A DNA stretch of 50,560 bases from Aneurinibacillus terranovensis DSM 18919. GTDB taxonomy: Bacteria; Bacillota; Bacilli; Aneurinibacillales; Aneurinibacillaceae. Positions 30,401-50,560 of the stretch are shown in pieces. The stretch lies in contig NZ_AUMJ01000046.1 of NCBI RefSeq assembly GCF_000430625.1, forward strand, positions 1 through 50,560, given 5' to 3'. The translations under genes and the position numbers were made by a program. Position 1 is the first letter of the stretch. Every line of letters begins with the position of its first letter. The notes beneath the pieces were generated by a model that was not told the origin of the DNA, did no database searches, and worked only from the letters and a program-made list of their open reading frames with translations.

Positions 30401-31381
30401 TTAATCCCCGACCTTATTTTTTAAATATCGCTGGTACGCTTCGCGAAGTTTCGCGGATGTTTGCTCTACCGCTTTCGGATTACAGGCGGCCCATGCACCC
30501 GTTTCCGAGGAAGCGTTGTATTTAATTTTATTGGCTTCACGCAGCGGTGGATAAAACTCAATATGGAAGTGGTAATAATCGTCCACATCTTCACTGTTCA
30601 CTGGCCGCTGGTGGAGAACCATCATATACGGAAACAGGCGGTCAAACAGAGTATCCATAGCGCCTGTCATTACCTTTAACATTTCCGCAAGGCTTTTTTT
30701 TTCTTCCATTGTAAAGTCCGGCAAAGCTGTTTTATGATTTTTACTAACGATAAACAAGCCGTAGGGATAATCGGTAAAGAACGGAATGTAGGCAATGAAA
30801 TGTTCGTTTTCAAAAATCACGCGCTGCTTGAAATTCTGCTCTTCCCGGTTCATGTCGCAAATCAGGCAGTGTCCAGTTTGGTCGTGGTGGTTCTTACAGT
30901 TTGTAAGCTCAGTGCGAATTTTTAGCGGCATCTGCGAATACGCATAAATCTGGCCGTGCGGATGCGGCATCGTTACCCCGCATTCTTCTCCACGATTTTC
31001 GAAAATCATAATATATTTATTTTTCGGATCTCTACGCAACTCATTGAAGCGTTCCGTCCATAAATTTATCAATTGTTCAATATGCGGAACAGAAAGTTCG
31101 GGAAGTGTTGCTGTATGATTCGGAGAATACAGGATGACCTCGCATTTCCCGTACGATTTTTTTGTCCGGTATAGGTCGGACCCCACCTCGTCGGGTTCCG
31201 GAGGTTCGGGCATTAACGCGGGAAAGTCATTATCATATTTATACACCGTATAATCGTCCGGAACTTTTCCGGAGCCGGGGCAAAAGGGGCAAAAATCCTT
31301 TGGCATCGTCGGCCGGTTCGTCCGGTGGGAAGCAACCATGGTCCAATCATCCAGTAATGGATTATAGCGTAATTCAGCCAA
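30401..31381 (-). CDS. galT: Galactose-1-phosphate uridylyltransferase
   Basis: A 326-residue HIT-type transferase that exchanges UMP between UDP-glucose and galactose 1-phosphate. Zinc motif CPFCPGSG (residues 32-39) and active-site histidine triad MPHPHGQIYAY with the nucleophilic second His. This is the short galT1 type, not the long Bacillus subtilis type. The start is TTG 31381 after AAGGAGGGA. It is the first gene of galT-galK-galE-M24-ROK, and a perfect palindrome lies 86 bases upstream. Confidence 0.96.
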   Translation of the reverse strand: MAELRYNPLLDDWTMVASHRTNRPTMPKDFCPFCPGSGKVPDDYTVYKYDNDFPALMPEPPEPDEVGSDLYRTKKSYGKCEVILYSPNHTATLPELSVPHIEQLINLWTERFNELRRDPKNKYIMIFENRGEECGVTMPHPHGQIYAYSQMPLKIRTELTNCKNHHDQTGHCLICDMNREEQNFKQRVIFENEHFIAYIPFFTDYPYGLFIVSKNHKTALPDFTMEEKKSLAEMLKVMTGAMDTLFDRLFPYMMVLHQRPVNSEDVDDYYHFHIEFYPPLREANKIKYNASSETGAWAACNPKAVEQTSAKLREAYQRYLKNKVGD

Positions 31382-31466
31382 CTTTCTCCCTCCTTACTTT
31401 TTGCTGGATAGCTATACCACAATGGGTGACACCACGTGTGTCACTGCATGCTACCAGCTTGCATCT

Positions 31467-31493
31467 AACTTAATTAAATAAATTAATTAAGTT
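31467..31493 (-). promoter_or_regulatory. Palindrome before galT, candidate ROK-repressor operator
   Basis: AACTTAATTAA and TTAATTAAGTT are perfect inverted copies around ATAAA. The AT-rich 27-base site resembles operators of XylR-like ROK repressors and lies in the galU-galT gap. A second palindrome, GTGACAC..GTGTCAC (about 31424-31440), lies nearer the gene. Confidence 0.6.
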
Positions 31494-31535
31494 AATCATA
31501 CTCTCCCCTATTTTTTTTTGCAATCTTTTTTTCGC

Positions 31536-32408
31536 TTAATTCCTCAACTTTTCAGCCTGCTTACACAAATATGCTTTAAAAAGCGGGCCTATGTCCTCAC
31601 GTTCTAAAGCAAACTCGACGGTTGCCTTAAGGAATCCAAGTTTATTACCGGCATCATAGCGGGTTCCGTTGAATTGATAGCCCAGCAGCTTGTTCTGTTC
31701 TGCCAGCCGGTTCAGCGCATAGGACAAATCCAGCTCTATTCCCTGCTCACAGGGCGCTTCTTTTAAAAGTTCAAATACTTCGGGTTCAAATATATAGCGG
31801 CCAATAATCGCACGGTTGGTTGGCGGGTTTTCTTTCGGTTTTTCTACTACATAAGAAATATCATACAGCCGTTCGATCTTTTTCTCCCCTGCAATAATTC
31901 CGTAGTTTCTCGTCTCCTCCGGTTCTACCTCCTGCACCGCCACCAGCGATTTTTCCTCTTTCTCGTACAGTTCAAGCATCTGCTTCAAACACGGGGTGTC
32001 CCCTTTTATCAAATCATCGCCCAGCAGTACAGCAAATGGTTCGCCACAAATAAACGGCCGCGCACAGGCAATGGCGTCTCCAAGACCCAACGGTTCGCGC
32101 TGGCGAATGTAAAAAACATTGGCGAGATGGGAAATGTTTTCTACCACTTCAAGCTGACTCTCATTTCCTTTATTCCGGAGATTGGTCTCAAGTTCAAAGC
32201 TTTTATCAAAATGGTCCTCAATCGCCCGCTTATTGCGGCCGGTGACAATCATAATATCTTCAATCCCCGATGCGACTGCTTCCTCCACGATGTACTGGAT
32301 AACAGGTTTGTCAACAATCGGGAGCATTTCCTTCGGCTGCGCTTTCGTTGCCGGGAGAAAACGGGTTCCCAGTCCGGCGGCAGGGATCACAGCTTTTTTA
32401 ATTTTCAT
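31536..32408 (-). CDS. galU: UTP-glucose-1-phosphate uridylyltransferase
   Basis: A 290-residue nucleotidyltransferase making UDP-glucose from glucose 1-phosphate and UTP. Signature PAAGLGTRFLPATKAQPKEM (residues 8-27), VDKPVIQYIVEEA, and ILLGDDL-like VLLGDDLIKG. I start at ATG 32408 (MKIKKAVIPAAG) after GGAGAG, not at the longer frame's ATG 32438. It provides the UDP-glucose that GalT consumes, as well as precursors for envelope glycans. It precedes galT but is separated by the palindrome, so the galT transcript probably has its own promoter. Confidence 0.96.
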   Translation of the reverse strand: MKIKKAVIPAAGLGTRFLPATKAQPKEMLPIVDKPVIQYIVEEAVASGIEDIMIVTGRNKRAIEDHFDKSFELETNLRNKGNESQLEVVENISHLANVFYIRQREPLGLGDAIACARPFICGEPFAVLLGDDLIKGDTPCLKQMLELYEKEEKSLVAVQEVEPEETRNYGIIAGEKKIERLYDISYVVEKPKENPPTNRAIIGRYIFEPEVFELLKEAPCEQGIELDLSYALNRLAEQNKLLGYQFNGTRYDAGNKLGFLKATVEFALEREDIGPLFKAYLCKQAEKLRN

Positions 32409-45666: not shown

Positions 45667-46635
45667 GTGAAAGAAAGCCTTGAACAGCTCATCACATGGA
45701 GCAAGAACCATATTGAGTACCTTGAAACATTAGAGAATGGCTCATCATCCGGGCGGTTCGCCGATTTATTGCATGAATTCACGCACGTTAAAAAAACCGC
45801 CGAAAGCTTTATCGAACGCACCACAGAAGTAGTGGATAATGCGGCCGAGGTGTATGCGTTATTCGAACGCTCAGAGCATTTATATAAAACGCTTATCAGC
45901 TTACTGGAAGAGAGCGGAGCGCTGTCGCTTGCCGAACATCTCCTGCTCGTAAGCGGGGTTGAGGAAGAACAGCGAAAGGATGACGTGTCCAGTTCACCTG
46001 CGGGACAGCCGGTTCCAATCGGCGGACATAACCTCCCTCCCCTGCCGTATCCTTATAACGCCCTCGAACCTCATATTGATGAAAAAACGATGCGGCTACA
46101 CCACGACAAGCACCATAAATCGTATGTCGAAGGGCTCAATAAGGCGGAAAAGGAAATGCAGCGTGCCCGCCAAAAAAATGATTTTGTACTGATAAAACAC
46201 TGGGAGCGGGAAGCCGCTTTTAACGGAGCCGGCCATTACCTGCATACGATTTTCTGGCATAATATGAGTCCGAACGGCGGCGGCCGTCCTACCGGGGCGA
46301 TTGCGCAGGAAATTGACCGGACGTTCGGAAGTTTCGATGCGTTTAAGGCCCACTTCTCTGCCGCTGCAGAGAAAGTCGAGGGGGGCGGCTGGGCGCTGCT
46401 CGTCTGGAGCCCCCGCTCTCATCGCATGGAGATTCTTCAGGCGGAAAAACATCAGAATCTTTCGCAGCAGGATGTAATCCCTCTGCTTGTACTTGACGTA
46501 TGGGAGCATTCGTACTATTTAAAGTATAATGACCGGCGCCCCGAGTATATCGATGCCTGGTGGAATGTTGTCAACTGGAGCGATGTCAACGAACGCTTCC
46601 TTCCGGCACGCAAACTGCAATGGACCGCTTTTTAA
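45667..46635 (+). CDS. Fe/Mn superoxide dismutase with N-terminal helical extension
   Basis: A 322-residue SOD. Residues 1-115 are a charged helical domain not found in plain SODs, as in the extended SodF of Bacillus. The SOD part starts GHNLPPLPYPYNALEPHID. Metal ligands: His145 (LHHDKHH), His193 (HTIFW), then Asp and His of DVWEHSYY. It converts superoxide to peroxide and oxygen. Start GTG 45667 after GAGGAGGG. Whether it uses Fe or Mn cannot be told. The extension may hold it at the membrane or to a partner. Confidence 0.9.
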   Translation: MKESLEQLITWSKNHIEYLETLENGSSSGRFADLLHEFTHVKKTAESFIERTTEVVDNAAEVYALFERSEHLYKTLISLLEESGALSLAEHLLLVSGVEEEQRKDDVSSSPAGQPVPIGGHNLPPLPYPYNALEPHIDEKTMRLHHDKHHKSYVEGLNKAEKEMQRARQKNDFVLIKHWEREAAFNGAGHYLHTIFWHNMSPNGGGRPTGAIAQEIDRTFGSFDAFKAHFSAAAEKVEGGGWALLVWSPRSHRMEILQAEKHQNLSQQDVIPLLVLDVWEHSYYLKYNDRRPEYIDAWWNVVNWSDVNERFLPARKLQWTAF

Positions 46636-46828: not shown

Positions 46829-47761
46829 ATGGAAGTTTCCACAGTTTTATCTTCAATTGCTATCATGACGATTATGATTGGAATAGGAAGTTTGCTGACC
46901 CTCAGGGTTCCTTTTACAGCCGAGCGGCGGGAATTATTAATGACCCTCATTGTCAATGTGGCACTTCCGTTCATTATTATAAGCGGGGTATTTCATACGA
47001 GAATGGACGGGCAATTTCTTCTTCTCATTTTGGGTACCTTCGTTATTTCCATCATCGTTAACTGCATTGGAATTGCCATGGGGTGGCTGGCCGCCCGCAG
47101 CATCGGTGCCGGACACGAAAAAGTGCGGGAGATGGCTATTCTGTCAGGACTTGGAAATACCGGATTTATCGGCCTTCCGCTGTGTGCCATGTTGTTTGGC
47201 GCGAAAGGCGGGGTTTTGGCTGCGGTTTTTGATTCAGGGCTCGATTTTACCATTTGGACATTAGGCGTGATGATGCTGCAGCGGAAAAAATTCTCGTTCC
47301 GTTCGCTGAAAGAATTGATAAACATTCCAATGATGGCGATTGTAACCGGGCTGCTTGTTGCCGTCCTTAAACTTTCGCCCCCATTTTTCCTCATCCGGCT
47401 AAGCGATTCTCTGGCAAGTCTGGCCTCCCCACTGGCCATGATTTATATCGGAATGTTAATACCGTCTCTCTTGAGGAAGAAATCCGCTTCCATCCGGCAG
47501 ATTGGCATGCCGCTTATTATGAAACTGCTTATTTTCCCGGTCGTTATTGCTCTGCTTGTACATATTGTTCCATTGCACAAAGAGATAACACAGGTCGTTA
47601 TCGTTCAGTCCACAATGCCCACCATTTCGCTCGCCTCTATCCTCTTCGCACGATATTCGGCAGACGAAGAATACGGAGCTATGGCAACGGTGTTTTCTAC
47701 CTTATTATCCATGATGACGATCCCGTTTATGATAGCCGTTGGTTTTTATATCCTAAAGTAG
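46829..47761 (+). CDS. AEC-family (auxin efflux carrier-type) transporter
   Basis: A 310-residue membrane protein with about ten helices arranged as two inverted five-helix halves. The half-site motif LGNTGFIGLPLCAMLFGAKG and the partner VIVQSTMPTISLASILFARY are typical for AEC carriers. Members move malate, other dicarboxylates or similar anions; the substrate is unknown. AAGGGAGAA precedes ATG 46829. The 3' end overlaps a truncated gene on the other strand. Confidence 0.88.
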   Translation: MEVSTVLSSIAIMTIMIGIGSLLTLRVPFTAERRELLMTLIVNVALPFIIISGVFHTRMDGQFLLLILGTFVISIIVNCIGIAMGWLAARSIGAGHEKVREMAILSGLGNTGFIGLPLCAMLFGAKGGVLAAVFDSGLDFTIWTLGVMMLQRKKFSFRSLKELINIPMMAIVTGLLVAVLKLSPPFFLIRLSDSLASLASPLAMIYIGMLIPSLLRKKSASIRQIGMPLIMKLLIFPVVIALLVHIVPLHKEITQVVIVQSTMPTISLASILFARYSADEEYGAMATVFSTLLSMMTIPFMIAVGFYILK

Positions 47762-47870
47762 AGTGCGATGTATCAAGTCTCCCTTTTTTGTACCCCTGGC
47801 CCTTTAATGACTGAATCGCACGAATCGCTTCATCTTCTGTATAAAAAACTCCAACAATTTTCTTTTCCAT
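47727..47870 (-). pseudogene. Truncated general stress protein 17M (YflT-like)
   Basis: ATG 47870 after GGAGGG starts MEKKIVGVFYTEDEAIRAIQ, followed by SLKGQGYK, the N-terminal repeat pattern of general stress protein 17M/YflT. The frame ends after 47 codons (family members are over 100), inside the 3' end of the AEC gene. Most of the domain is lost. Either a relic or a fragment protein. Confidence 0.6.
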
Positions 47871-47979
47871 CGGGTACATCCCTCCATACAATTTTTGTTC
47901 ACACTTACTCTTACCCTGCTTAAACGGAATTTCAAACAACGATTTTACACAGGAACAAAAGGAAGGAAACGGCAATAGT

Positions 47980-48023
47980 TTAGTATAAAAGTATTAGTTT
48001 TATACTAAGGGCCGTGATATAAT
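47980..48023 (+). promoter_or_regulatory. Palindrome and -10 of the globin-sensor operon
   Basis: TTAGTATAAAA (47980-47990) is perfectly inverted as TTTTATACTAA (47998-48008), overlapping the -35 region of a TATAAT box at 48018-48023. An activator or repressor probably binds here. The operon's first gene starts 75 bases further on. Confidence 0.6.
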
Positions 48024-48098: not shown

Positions 48099-49478
48099 AT
48101 GAGCTGTTGTCCATTTAAAGATTTGTTGGGAAACGAACGTGGGTCATTCAGCTTTTTAAAGGGAGCAAAGAAAAATACATCCTTTCCCGAAGCCGATTCG
48201 CCGGCTGTGCCCTCCGATAATAATGCGGGCAAAAAGTATCAGGAGCTTCTTAGCAGCCAGGAAAATTCCAAGGTTCAGTTTCTTGGCTTAAAAGAAGAGG
48301 ATGTGACCCGGCTGGCAAGCCTACGACCCATATTTGAGAAGAATGTGGGAGATATTGTTAAATTTTTTTACGAACATGTCAGCGATGTTCCTTTATTGAT
48401 AGAGATTGTTAACAACCATAGCTCGGTAGACAATCTGCGGAAAACATTAGAATGTTATCTTCTTGACATGGTTTCCGGAAACATTGGAAAAGACTACATC
48501 ATTCGCCGAAAAATTATTGGTAATGTACACAACCGGATCAATCTTTTCCCCGAATGGTATATCGGTGCCTTTACACACATCCAAAATGAAGTACTCAGCA
48601 TGCTGGTACGGGAATTAGAACCGTCTGCTGCACTCGAAGCGTTTTACTCCTTCCAGCGCCTGTGCTCGTTTGATATGCAGATTGCGATATCTACGTATAT
48701 CGATTCCTACACATCGTCGATGATGAAGCTCAACGAAATCGAACGCATTCAGCACCATTTAACTGAATCGTCAGAGATGTTAGTAGCTACCGCTGAGGAA
48801 ACGACCGCTTCTATCAATGAAAAAGAGAGACACGTTGTTGAGATGCTGGAAGGCACAAGGGTCATTCAGGAAGGATCGACCCAGATGGTAGAGCAGGTAG
48901 AAGAAGGAAAGCAGGAAATTGAAGCAGCTTTGTTAGAAATTGACAGGATTGTTGAAGTGATAGAAGAAACAAGGACAAAATCGCAGGAACTGATTGAGAG
49001 TTCCAATAAAATTGGGGAAGTCGTCCAGGTCATCCATGCAATTTCGAACAAAACAAACGTGTTGTCACTTAATGCAAGCATTGAGGCAGCTCGTGCAGGT
49101 GAGCATGGCCGGGGTTTCACGGTAGTAGCCAAAGAAGTGCGAAATCTGGCGCTCCAAACCCAATCTGCGCTTGATCATATTCAGGAACAAATCACCCGTG
49201 TTCAGACCAATGTGATAGAATTCGAGAATTCCTTTAAACAAATTGCCTTGCAAACGAGTAAATTCCGGGATATTAACAAGTCCATTATGAGTATTATGGA
49301 TGATTCTTCCGTACACGTTCGGGAAAACAGCGAGAAAATTCAACGCGTAAGCCGGCATATCCATGATTTCCAGCAAACCTTCAAAGAAATATCAGATGCC
49401 TCCGAGCAGGTGGCAAAGATGGCGGAAGAACTGAGTATTTTAAGCAATCAATTGAATGACACATTCGATCTTAAATAA
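48099..49478 (+). CDS. Globin-coupled methyl-accepting sensor (HemAT-like)
   Basis: A 459-residue soluble sensor without membrane segments. After a 45-residue N-terminus with two cysteines (MSCCPF), a globin-sensor domain spans residues about 55-215; the likely proximal haem histidine is His144 (IIGNVHNRINLFPEWYIGAF). The rest is a methyl-accepting coiled coil with the signalling tip KTNVLSLNASIEAARAGEHGRGF split by the hairpin. HemAT senses oxygen in aerotaxis. Here the downstream genes are a partner switch, not chemotaxis genes, so it may control a sigma factor instead. GGAAGGAGAG precedes ATG 48099. Confidence 0.9.
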   Translation: MSCCPFKDLLGNERGSFSFLKGAKKNTSFPEADSPAVPSDNNAGKKYQELLSSQENSKVQFLGLKEEDVTRLASLRPIFEKNVGDIVKFFYEHVSDVPLLIEIVNNHSSVDNLRKTLECYLLDMVSGNIGKDYIIRRKIIGNVHNRINLFPEWYIGAFTHIQNEVLSMLVRELEPSAALEAFYSFQRLCSFDMQIAISTYIDSYTSSMMKLNEIERIQHHLTESSEMLVATAEETTASINEKERHVVEMLEGTRVIQEGSTQMVEQVEEGKQEIEAALLEIDRIVEVIEETRTKSQELIESSNKIGEVVQVIHAISNKTNVLSLNASIEAARAGEHGRGFTVVAKEVRNLALQTQSALDHIQEQITRVQTNVIEFENSFKQIALQTSKFRDINKSIMSIMDDSSVHVRENSEKIQRVSRHIHDFQQTFKEISDASEQVAKMAEELSILSNQLNDTFDLK

Positions 49479-49505
49479 CTAGAGAAACGCAGAGGTGGAG
49501 ACACT

Positions 49506-49820
49506 GTGGAGACAGAGAAATTCTTGTATGAAAGCAAAGAGTTTGCATCCCTGCAAGAAATGTCGGAGAGCCTGCTACATGAAGCCAATCAACAGATTAT
49601 TCGAATTGACATGGGGGAACTGCCGAATACAGCTGAAGTAAGAAACTATATAAAGTGGCGCCTGCTTCATTTGCAATATCACTTTAACGATAAAATACCG
49701 CACGAACTTCGAACCACCTACAATTCTTTATGAGGCCAGCTTTATCGTTTGGAACATCAGAGCGAATATCGCCATCCATACCTCAAACAATTGCTGGAAC
49801 AACTGCATGCTGAACTATGA
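49506..49820 (+). CDS. Small helical protein with in-frame TGA, partner-switch operon
   Basis: GTG 49506 follows GAGGTGGAG. The frame is 75 codons to TGA at 49731-49733. Beyond it the same frame stays open for 28 more codons with helix-like sequence (GQLYRLEHQSEYRHPYLKQL, then LEQLHAEL) and ends TGA 49818-49820, overlapping the kinase start by 14 bases. That overlap is typical for coupled genes, so the intact product was probably 104 residues and now is truncated, read through or mis-sequenced. The product is acidic and helical; no family recognised. Confidence 0.6.
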
Positions 49821-50205
49821 ATGCACCCAACTGGCAGATGACGAATTGAAAAAACATGTTGACGTGATGATGAACCAGGTGAGCGATTATTTATCGCTGT
49901 CGCCGGAAAGCCTGCTGTATTATAATATCTATTTATCCATATGGGAGCTCCTCCTGAATATTATCAATCATAATAAGGCCGGGGATCATACAGTAAACGT
50001 TGCGGTATGGTGGACAGAAAAAGAAATCTTTTTGCAGATTAAACATGAGGGCGGCGGATTCGATTGGGAGAACTGCATGGCGTGCGAATTACCATCAGAT
50101 GAACACGCGAGAGGAAGAGGGTTATTTCTTGTAAGCCATGTCAGTAAGACGTTTTCGTTTAACTCTACAGGCCAGATCGCAACTGTTACATTTGAACGGG
50201 TGTAA
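49807..50205 (+). CDS. Anti-sigma factor kinase (RsbW/SpoIIAB-like HATPase)
   Basis: A 132-residue GHKL-type ATPase. N-box ELLLNIINHNKAG (Glu, Asn and Asn-His), G1 box IKHEGGGFDWEN and G2 box RGRGLFLVSHVS. In most anti-sigma kinases the G1 box starts with Asp (D-x-G-x-G); here it is His (HEGGG), which might weaken nucleotide binding. Such proteins bind a sigma factor or other target and phosphorylate a STAS antagonist, which is the next gene. ATG 49807 lacks a strong ribosome site, fitting translational coupling to the preceding gene. Confidence 0.83.
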   Translation: MLNYECTQLADDELKKHVDVMMNQVSDYLSLSPESLLYYNIYLSIWELLLNIINHNKAGDHTVNVAVWWTEKEIFLQIKHEGGGFDWENCMACELPSDEHARGRGLFLVSHVSKTFSFNSTGQIATVTFERV

Positions 50206-50220
50206 AGGAGGATATATAAT

Positions 50221-50520
50221 ATGGTTACTTTTATTGAACACGGGGAGACAATACATCTCCATTTCGAGGGGGACATCAACTTTGAAACGGTGAGGAAGAT
50301 CGAGGTAAAAATACGAGACTGGATCGTTCCATCCCATACTAAAAAGATAACACTTGATTTTCAAAAAGTAAAGTTCGTGGACAGCACGGGAGTGGGCTTT
50401 TTGATTAGCCGGATTCATCCCTTAACCTCCCGCTATCAAGTGGAGATAAACAACGCTTCTCTGCCGGTAAAAAACATTTTGCAAATTTGCAAATTAGATA
50501 GCCTGGTTAAAATTTTATGA
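50221..50520 (+). CDS. STAS-domain anti-sigma factor antagonist
   Basis: A 99-residue single STAS domain. The phosphoacceptor loop is KFVDSTGVGFLIS (Ser55), as in SpoIIAA/RsbV. When unphosphorylated it would bind the neighbouring kinase and free its target. AAAGGAGG precedes ATG 50221, 15 bases after the kinase. The operon probably continues beyond the window, where a PP2C phosphatase or sigma factor could lie. Confidence 0.9.
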   Translation: MVTFIEHGETIHLHFEGDINFETVRKIEVKIRDWIVPSHTKKITLDFQKVKFVDSTGVGFLISRIHPLTSRYQVEINNASLPVKNILQICKLDSLVKIL

Positions 50521-50560
50521 ATTAGCCGAGAACACTCGTGACTTCCGTCATGAGATGAAT

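Follow-up and report, generated by a model that had tools for sequence, protein, structure and literature searches.

A conserved gene cluster of Bacilli places a globin-coupled MCP sensor beside the parts of a partner switch

Introduction

Can a haem-globin sensor of the chemotaxis type speak to a switch of the stress-response type? MCP-type signalling domains are thought to act through CheA. The end of one contig from an Aneurinibacillus genome of 4.25 Mb suggests a different partnership. The window, by which we mean the whole stretch of DNA analysed (contig C29, 50,560 bases), closes with four plus-strand genes: a globin-MCP gene, a small ORF, an RsbW-like kinase gene and a STAS gene. The original prediction, made from the letters of the window, took this layout to mean that gas or redox sensing is wired to a partner-switching module. 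We discuss the gene content of the locus, its conservation among relatives, the phosphatase that accompanies it, and the competing directions in which a signal could flow. With slightly better than even confidence we favor a partner-switching module of five parts that receives two sensory inputs, one gated by gas through the globin-MCP and one gated by the signal of the phosphatase. Gas sensing would then feed a stress-type switch in place of swimming behavior, or alongside it.

Organization of the locus

The globin-MCP gene (48099-49478, plus strand) encodes a soluble globin-coupled sensor with an MCP signalling domain (459 aa), assigned by domain profiles and a match to HemAT. It is followed after 27 nt by the gene of a small beta-hairpin and helical protein (49506-49820, plus strand; ~104 codons, interrupted by a TGA), then by an RsbW/SpoIIAB-like GHKL kinase gene (49807-50205, plus strand; 132 aa) and, after a further 15 nt, by an RsbV/SpoIIAA-like STAS gene (50221-50520, plus strand; 99 aa). 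The STAS product carries the phospho-acceptor motif DSTG, with the Ser codon at about 50383-50385. All four gene products first proposed for this region are present, and profile matches to Protoglobin, MCPsignal, HATPase_c_2 and STAS bear out the domain assignments.

A promoter-like region lies 5' of the globin-MCP gene (47979-48023, plus strand); it combines a block, TTTAGTATAAAAGTAT (47979-47994), with an extended -10 element, TGATATAAT (48015-48023). Both are conserved upstream of the globin-MCP gene in Aneurinibacillus relatives, the block being weaker in Aneurinibacillus sp. Ricciae_BoGa-3 (G001), which belongs to the same genus and is, of the genomes compared, the nearest to the window. 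An 11-bp inverted repeat at 47980-48008, also upstream of the globin-MCP gene, was rejected as a candidate element; it is not conserved in relatives. A scan for SigB-type promoters is expected to yield ~2.5 matches per region by chance, and we claim no such promoter for the operon.

The upstream neighborhood has features of its own. Before the operon, on the minus strand (47727-47975), a general stress gene of the YflT type survives as a remnant with ~25 recognizable N-terminal residues; a longer, apparently intact YflT-like gene stands divergent from the globin-MCP gene in G001, G002, G004 and G006. Upstream of the YflT-like gene, at a similar place in five genomes, is the sequence GTTT-N15-GGGTA, which resembles a SigB promoter, a pattern for which chance matches are frequent. 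Farther away, 45667-46635 encodes a superoxide dismutase that is extended at its N-terminus by ~115 residues.

Conservation of gene order

The order globin-MCP, helical protein, kinase, STAS is identical in 17 genomes from three families of Bacilli. These comprise eight genomes of the Aneurinibacillus family (the window's included), eight of the Anoxybacillus type and one of a third family (G228). The family genomes compared include G001, A. aneurinilyticus (G002) and A. danicus (G003). The kinase is found in 8 of the 11 Aneurinibacillus-family genomes, and all eight share the four-gene order, with an overlap of 8 to 14 nt between the helical and kinase genes and small gaps elsewhere. The Anoxybacillus-type set, made up of six Anoxybacillus genomes and two others of that family (G264 and G282), shows the identical four-gene arrangement. 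In G228, a PP2C phosphatase gene is the first of a five-gene operon and is followed on the same strand by globin-MCP, helical, kinase and STAS genes.

A profile of the kinase, run against 399 sampled Bacilli genomes, gave 11 strong matches, every one of them in the module arrangement; weak matches in two more of these genomes lie in other gene settings. The kinase sequence used as a query against genome contigs found no match, and the plasmid records searched held nothing beyond short matches to the MCP tip. The helical gene is present in only 1 of 24 genomes of the family of G228; the module is therefore patchy, as if passed between lineages.

Since the same order recurs in 17 genomes, chance is excluded as the cause of the gene adjacency. 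The conserved linkage on which the original prediction depended is thus kept in three families. It is a separate matter whether adjacent genes act together: they could be mere neighbors that function separately. We regard this as very improbable. Conserved but dispersed genes would favor it, and the opposite is seen; the flanking genes differ among the three families while the module order stays the same, and one genome (G007) has lost the kinase and phosphatase genes together.

Partial sets are informative as well. At its locus, G007 retains the globin-MCP and STAS genes and has lost those for the helical protein, kinase and PP2C, while G025, from a fourth family, has the globin-MCP and helical genes only. 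Because each partial set retains the MCP with one partner, the MCP would seem to be the hub of the module.

The phosphatase and the contig break

The original prediction suggested reading beyond the window for a PP2C phosphatase, CheA or sigma factor gene. All complete relatives have a SpoIIE/PP2C gene next to the module, and within the family, 11 genomes in all, it occurs in exactly the 8 that also encode the kinase. In Aneurinibacillus and Anoxybacillus it is convergent with the STAS gene. In the other seven complete genomes of the family it is a PAS-LOV-PP2C gene (~490 aa), located ~50 nt from the STAS gene and followed by a major facilitator-type transporter gene. Neither a sigma factor gene nor CheA or another che gene is present in the module loci read.

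In the window's own genome the phosphatase gene lies on another contig. Contig C29 ends in a stretch of multicopy insertion sequence, probably IS200/IS605-like (50530-50560, no strand assigned), that interrupts the assembly ~10 nt after the STAS gene and is found in 10 copies genome-wide, most of them at the ends of contigs. The LOV-PP2C gene is the one with which contig C46 ends (30990-32189) before an insertion-sequence fragment; it adjoins the same transporter and dehydrogenase as in relatives, and has a LOV domain but no first PAS; C46 then enters the C-terminus of a TnpB (1.2e-22). Because C46 runs into TnpB and C29 ends in multicopy sequence, an IS200/IS605-like element between the STAS and phosphatase genes most likely broke the assembly.

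The second PAS domain of the phosphatase is a LOV domain whose best solved relative is YtvA (8.4e-41). All six phosphatases aligned retain the LOV Cys within the NCRFL motif, and NCRFLQG is also found in the window's genome. The LOV-PP2C protein is thus predicted to be a blue-light sensor phosphatase. In G001, the PP2C gene (L009, record positions 1559214-1560679) is split in two frames and the LOV Cys is replaced by Ser; it may be a pseudogene or reflect a sequencing error.

The sensor of the phosphatase varies among lineages. The convergent PP2C of Anoxybacillus has a receiver domain (9.5e-27), whose phospho-acceptor Asp is lost in A. rupiensis; in G228 a PAS domain follows a degenerate-looking N-terminal part; in Aneurinibacillus the phosphatases have LOV/PAS domains and no receiver. 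The phosphatases of the different lineages may or may not be orthologous; the trees allow for either (p-AU 0.144). PP2C phosphatases have been proposed to exchange their sensors as a general rule (PMC12143880), and the present cluster appears to be a natural example.

The receiver domains raise the possibility of a chemosensory relay, in which the globin-MCP would act on CheA, CheA would phosphorylate the receiver of the PP2C and the switch would be thrown. There is a parallel in Shewanella, where an MCP/Che locus with CrsR/CrsA (Che1) encodes a partner switch that acts on RpoS (PMC9855816), and the Anoxybacillus phosphatases have the domain that a relay would need. The Aneurinibacillus phosphatases lack it, however, and the A. 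rupiensis receiver is without its phospho-acceptor, so that we consider a relay of this kind distinctly unlikely.

The small helical protein

The original prediction recognized a small helical protein between sensor and kinase. The gene is present, but the frame first listed (49506-49733) is a truncated reading that stops at an in-frame TGA (49731-49733, plus strand) where all relatives have Trp (YNSLW). Within STYNSLWSQLYRLEHQ, relatives read TGG AGC and the window TGA GGC, the next codon being altered too. Past the TGA the open frame continues as far as 49820 and overlaps the start of the kinase gene; the match to the family profile spans the stop. Post-stop differences from G001 fall mostly at third codon positions (17 of 25, versus 5 and 2 at the others). 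Because this codon-position bias persists after the stop, the TGA is either recent or a sequencing error. Selenocysteine was considered for this codon and rejected, as there is no evidence for it and the residue is an ordinary Trp in all relatives.

Searches of Pfam, NCBIfam, PHROGs and PDB sequences with the helical protein gave nothing convincing. The fold predicted for the protein of a relative is a beta-hairpin plus four helices (pLDDT 87); Foldseek found no match to it below an E value of 0.001, and structural comparison of the model returned middling Z values, as is common for helical bundles. The protein constitutes a new family without Pfam or PDB relatives. A CotJB-like match in G107 was set aside as chance.

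Aneurinibacillus genomes (g2) encode one to three additional copies of the helical gene. These paralogues are found behind a sigma-54-dependent regulator gene, often before a two-component system; opposite an ordinary MCP gene; and opposite a lone STAS gene. The company that they keep, of MCP, STAS and regulator genes, suggests that the helical protein is a signalling adaptor.

The kinase and the STAS protein

The kinase matches HATPase_c_2 above the cut-off (2.3e-8) and can be classed as a GHKL kinase of the anti-sigma type. The Glu and Asn of the N-box are retained in all module kinases compared. The G1 box is more variable. Its Asp, which holds ATP in GHKL kinases, is present in G005, G008, Anoxybacillus and G228; it is replaced in 6 of the 8 family genomes, by His in the window and G001 and by Asn in four others. 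Because the ATP-holding Asp is His or Asn in these genomes, phosphorylation of the STAS protein may have been lost in them. The STAS protein matches its domain profile (4.2e-13) and TIGR00377 above the cut-off of the latter; its predicted phosphorylatable Ser lies in a DSTG motif that is invariant in the family and reads DSSG in Anoxybacillus. Together with a PP2C phosphatase that carries a sensor domain, these are the parts of a partner switch.

Could the module of the window's genome simply be decaying? An interrupted helical gene, a kinase that lacks its G1 Asp and an insertion sequence between STAS and phosphatase genes all point that way. The remaining frames are nonetheless intact, the haem and STAS motifs are retained and the codon-position bias continues past the stop; moreover, the G1 change also occurs in relatives with otherwise complete modules. 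Decay therefore seems to us an improbable explanation. As for the wiring of gas sensing to a partner switch, the linkage, the phosphatase and the haem-pocket residues described below speak in its favor, and the interrupted helical gene and the missing G1 Asp speak against it.

A canonical rsb-sigB operon is located elsewhere in the window's genome, on contig C6, which makes cross-talk between the module and SigB possible. Outside the sigB operon there is another STAS and GHKL kinase pair behind a large uncharacterized protein (L130; G000:C31:40357-41188).

The globin-MCP and the direction of signal flow

The globin-MCP consists of a protoglobin domain (48273-48710, plus strand; 4.9e-33) followed by an MCP signalling domain (1.4e-30), as in HemAT, and its closest solved structure is that of HemAT (1or4, 5.8e-26). 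It is 70-73% identical to the genes of seven relatives. In HemAT the haem pocket includes a proximal His and a distal Tyr and Thr. The residues aligned with these in 1or4, Tyr91, Thr116 and His144, are invariant in all eight sequences. The protein is thus predicted to bind a haem ligand, probably O2; the first description of it as a HemAT-like haem sensor with an MCP tip agrees with both its architecture and its pocket residues.

Two other globin genes deserve mention. In G006 (contig C21, L133:4219-7077) a second HemAT-like gene is divergent from an adjoining receiver-PP2C gene, which is followed by a CheR-like gene; this is another possible tie between globin-MCP and PP2C. On contig C5 (G000:C5:168168-169082, minus strand; loci L002/L004), a 647-aa open frame matches protoglobin twice in tandem, once at 1.7e-30 and once at 2.5e-4, the latter falling short of the cut-off for the family; it is a possible double-globin protein.

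The MCP signalling hairpin (48957-49433, plus strand) has a conserved tip, NASIEAARAGEHGRGF, so that coupling to CheA is possible. Beyond the EAARAGE tip motif the globin-MCP has 124 residues, whereas two of the family's canonical MCPs have 154; its arms are ~four heptads shorter.

The main rival to our reading is a reversed flow of information. Here the globin-MCP would be an aerotaxis receptor that feeds CheA in the manner of HemAT, and kinase, STAS and PP2C, responding to light or phosphorylation, would adjust the receptor through binding of the STAS or helical protein. Such an arrangement would accommodate the conserved tip, the retention of STAS with the MCP but neither kinase nor phosphatase in G007, the pairing of helical protein and MCP in G025, and the helical paralogues that adjoin ordinary membrane MCP genes. 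It fits less well with the module loci read, which contain no che gene, and with the short arms of the globin-MCP, given that receptors with unequal numbers of heptads are considered not to mix (PMC9855816). We judge it unlikely, though less so than decay or a relay.

In the five-part module that we prefer, binding of the haem ligand, probably O2, at the globin would change the shape of the long MCP coiled coil. The coiled coil, with the helical protein as adaptor, would determine how active or how available the RsbW-like kinase is. The kinase would phosphorylate the STAS protein or, in some species, perhaps merely bind it. The PP2C would strip the phosphate from the STAS protein on a signal of its own, through a LOV domain here and through receiver or PAS domains elsewhere; in most of Aneurinibacillus this second signal would be blue light. 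The balance of free and phosphorylated STAS would then determine which partner the kinase or the STAS protein binds next. Gene content, gene order, conservation, domain motifs and the varied phosphatase sensor are observed; ligand, contacts, direction and final target (SigB or a non-sigma partner) are what the proposal supplies.

A bolder version, which we hold tentatively and at somewhat less than even confidence, is that the MCP coiled coil directly controls the RsbW-type kinase and STAS protein through helical adaptors and without CheA, summing gas with blue light or phosphorylation, and that members of this adaptor family link further MCPs of these bacteria to different outputs.

If the proposal is true, the pairing of MCP and partner switch would be a second output for a very common signalling domain. 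It would also reveal a route by which gas and light together enter stress-type switching in Gram-positive bacteria, and would introduce a new family of adaptors. The module is accessible to test with a handful of small soluble proteins.

Comparison with known systems

The individual parts are known from HemAT, the haem-globin RsbR stressosomes (PMC4976288, PMC9237108), LOV-SpoIIE (PMC4844311) and the Shewanella MCP/partner-switch locus (PMC9855816). In the literature searched, we found no description of the module combination, its conservation or the helical family, an absence that is no proof of novelty; 'globin-coupled sensor' together with 'partner-switching' led only to the Vibrio stressosome, and no paper on Aneurinibacillus globins was found.

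HemAT of Bacillus subtilis, like the globin-MCP, is a soluble protein with Protoglobin and MCP domains and aligned haem-pocket residues. The globin-MCP of the module differs in its operon with kinase, STAS and helical protein, and in the N-terminal CPF motif that most module globin-MCPs carry; HemAT-like genes without these neighbors also occur in relatives. The Shewanella oneidensis Che1 locus likewise brings MCP and partner-switch genes together, but has a full che gene set and a fused regulator, and neither a globin nor a small helical protein. Its MCP is of the Aer2 type (haem-PAS).

The RsbU/RsbP-RsbV-RsbW switch of the SigB pathway shares with the module the kinase, the DSTG-type STAS protein and a PP2C with a PAS or receiver sensor. 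The module locus, however, has no sigma gene, adds the globin-MCP and the helical protein, and has a changed G1 Asp in part of the family. The haem-globin RsbR stressosome of Vibrio resembles the module in combining a gas-sensing globin, STAS and a GHKL serine kinase (PMC4976288, PMC9237108). In the Vibrio system a single polypeptide joins the globin to a C-terminal STAS domain, and RsbT serves as the kinase. In the module the globin is joined to the MCP coiled coil (MCPsignal), with a free STAS protein and an RsbW/SpoIIAB-like kinase. YtvA (LOV-STAS) and LOV-SpoIIE tie a LOV domain with a photoactive Cys to a stress-type switch, as the module is predicted to do (PMC4844311, PMC7522486); the LOV domain of the module is carried by the phosphatase, and the cluster that encodes it also encodes a globin sensor.
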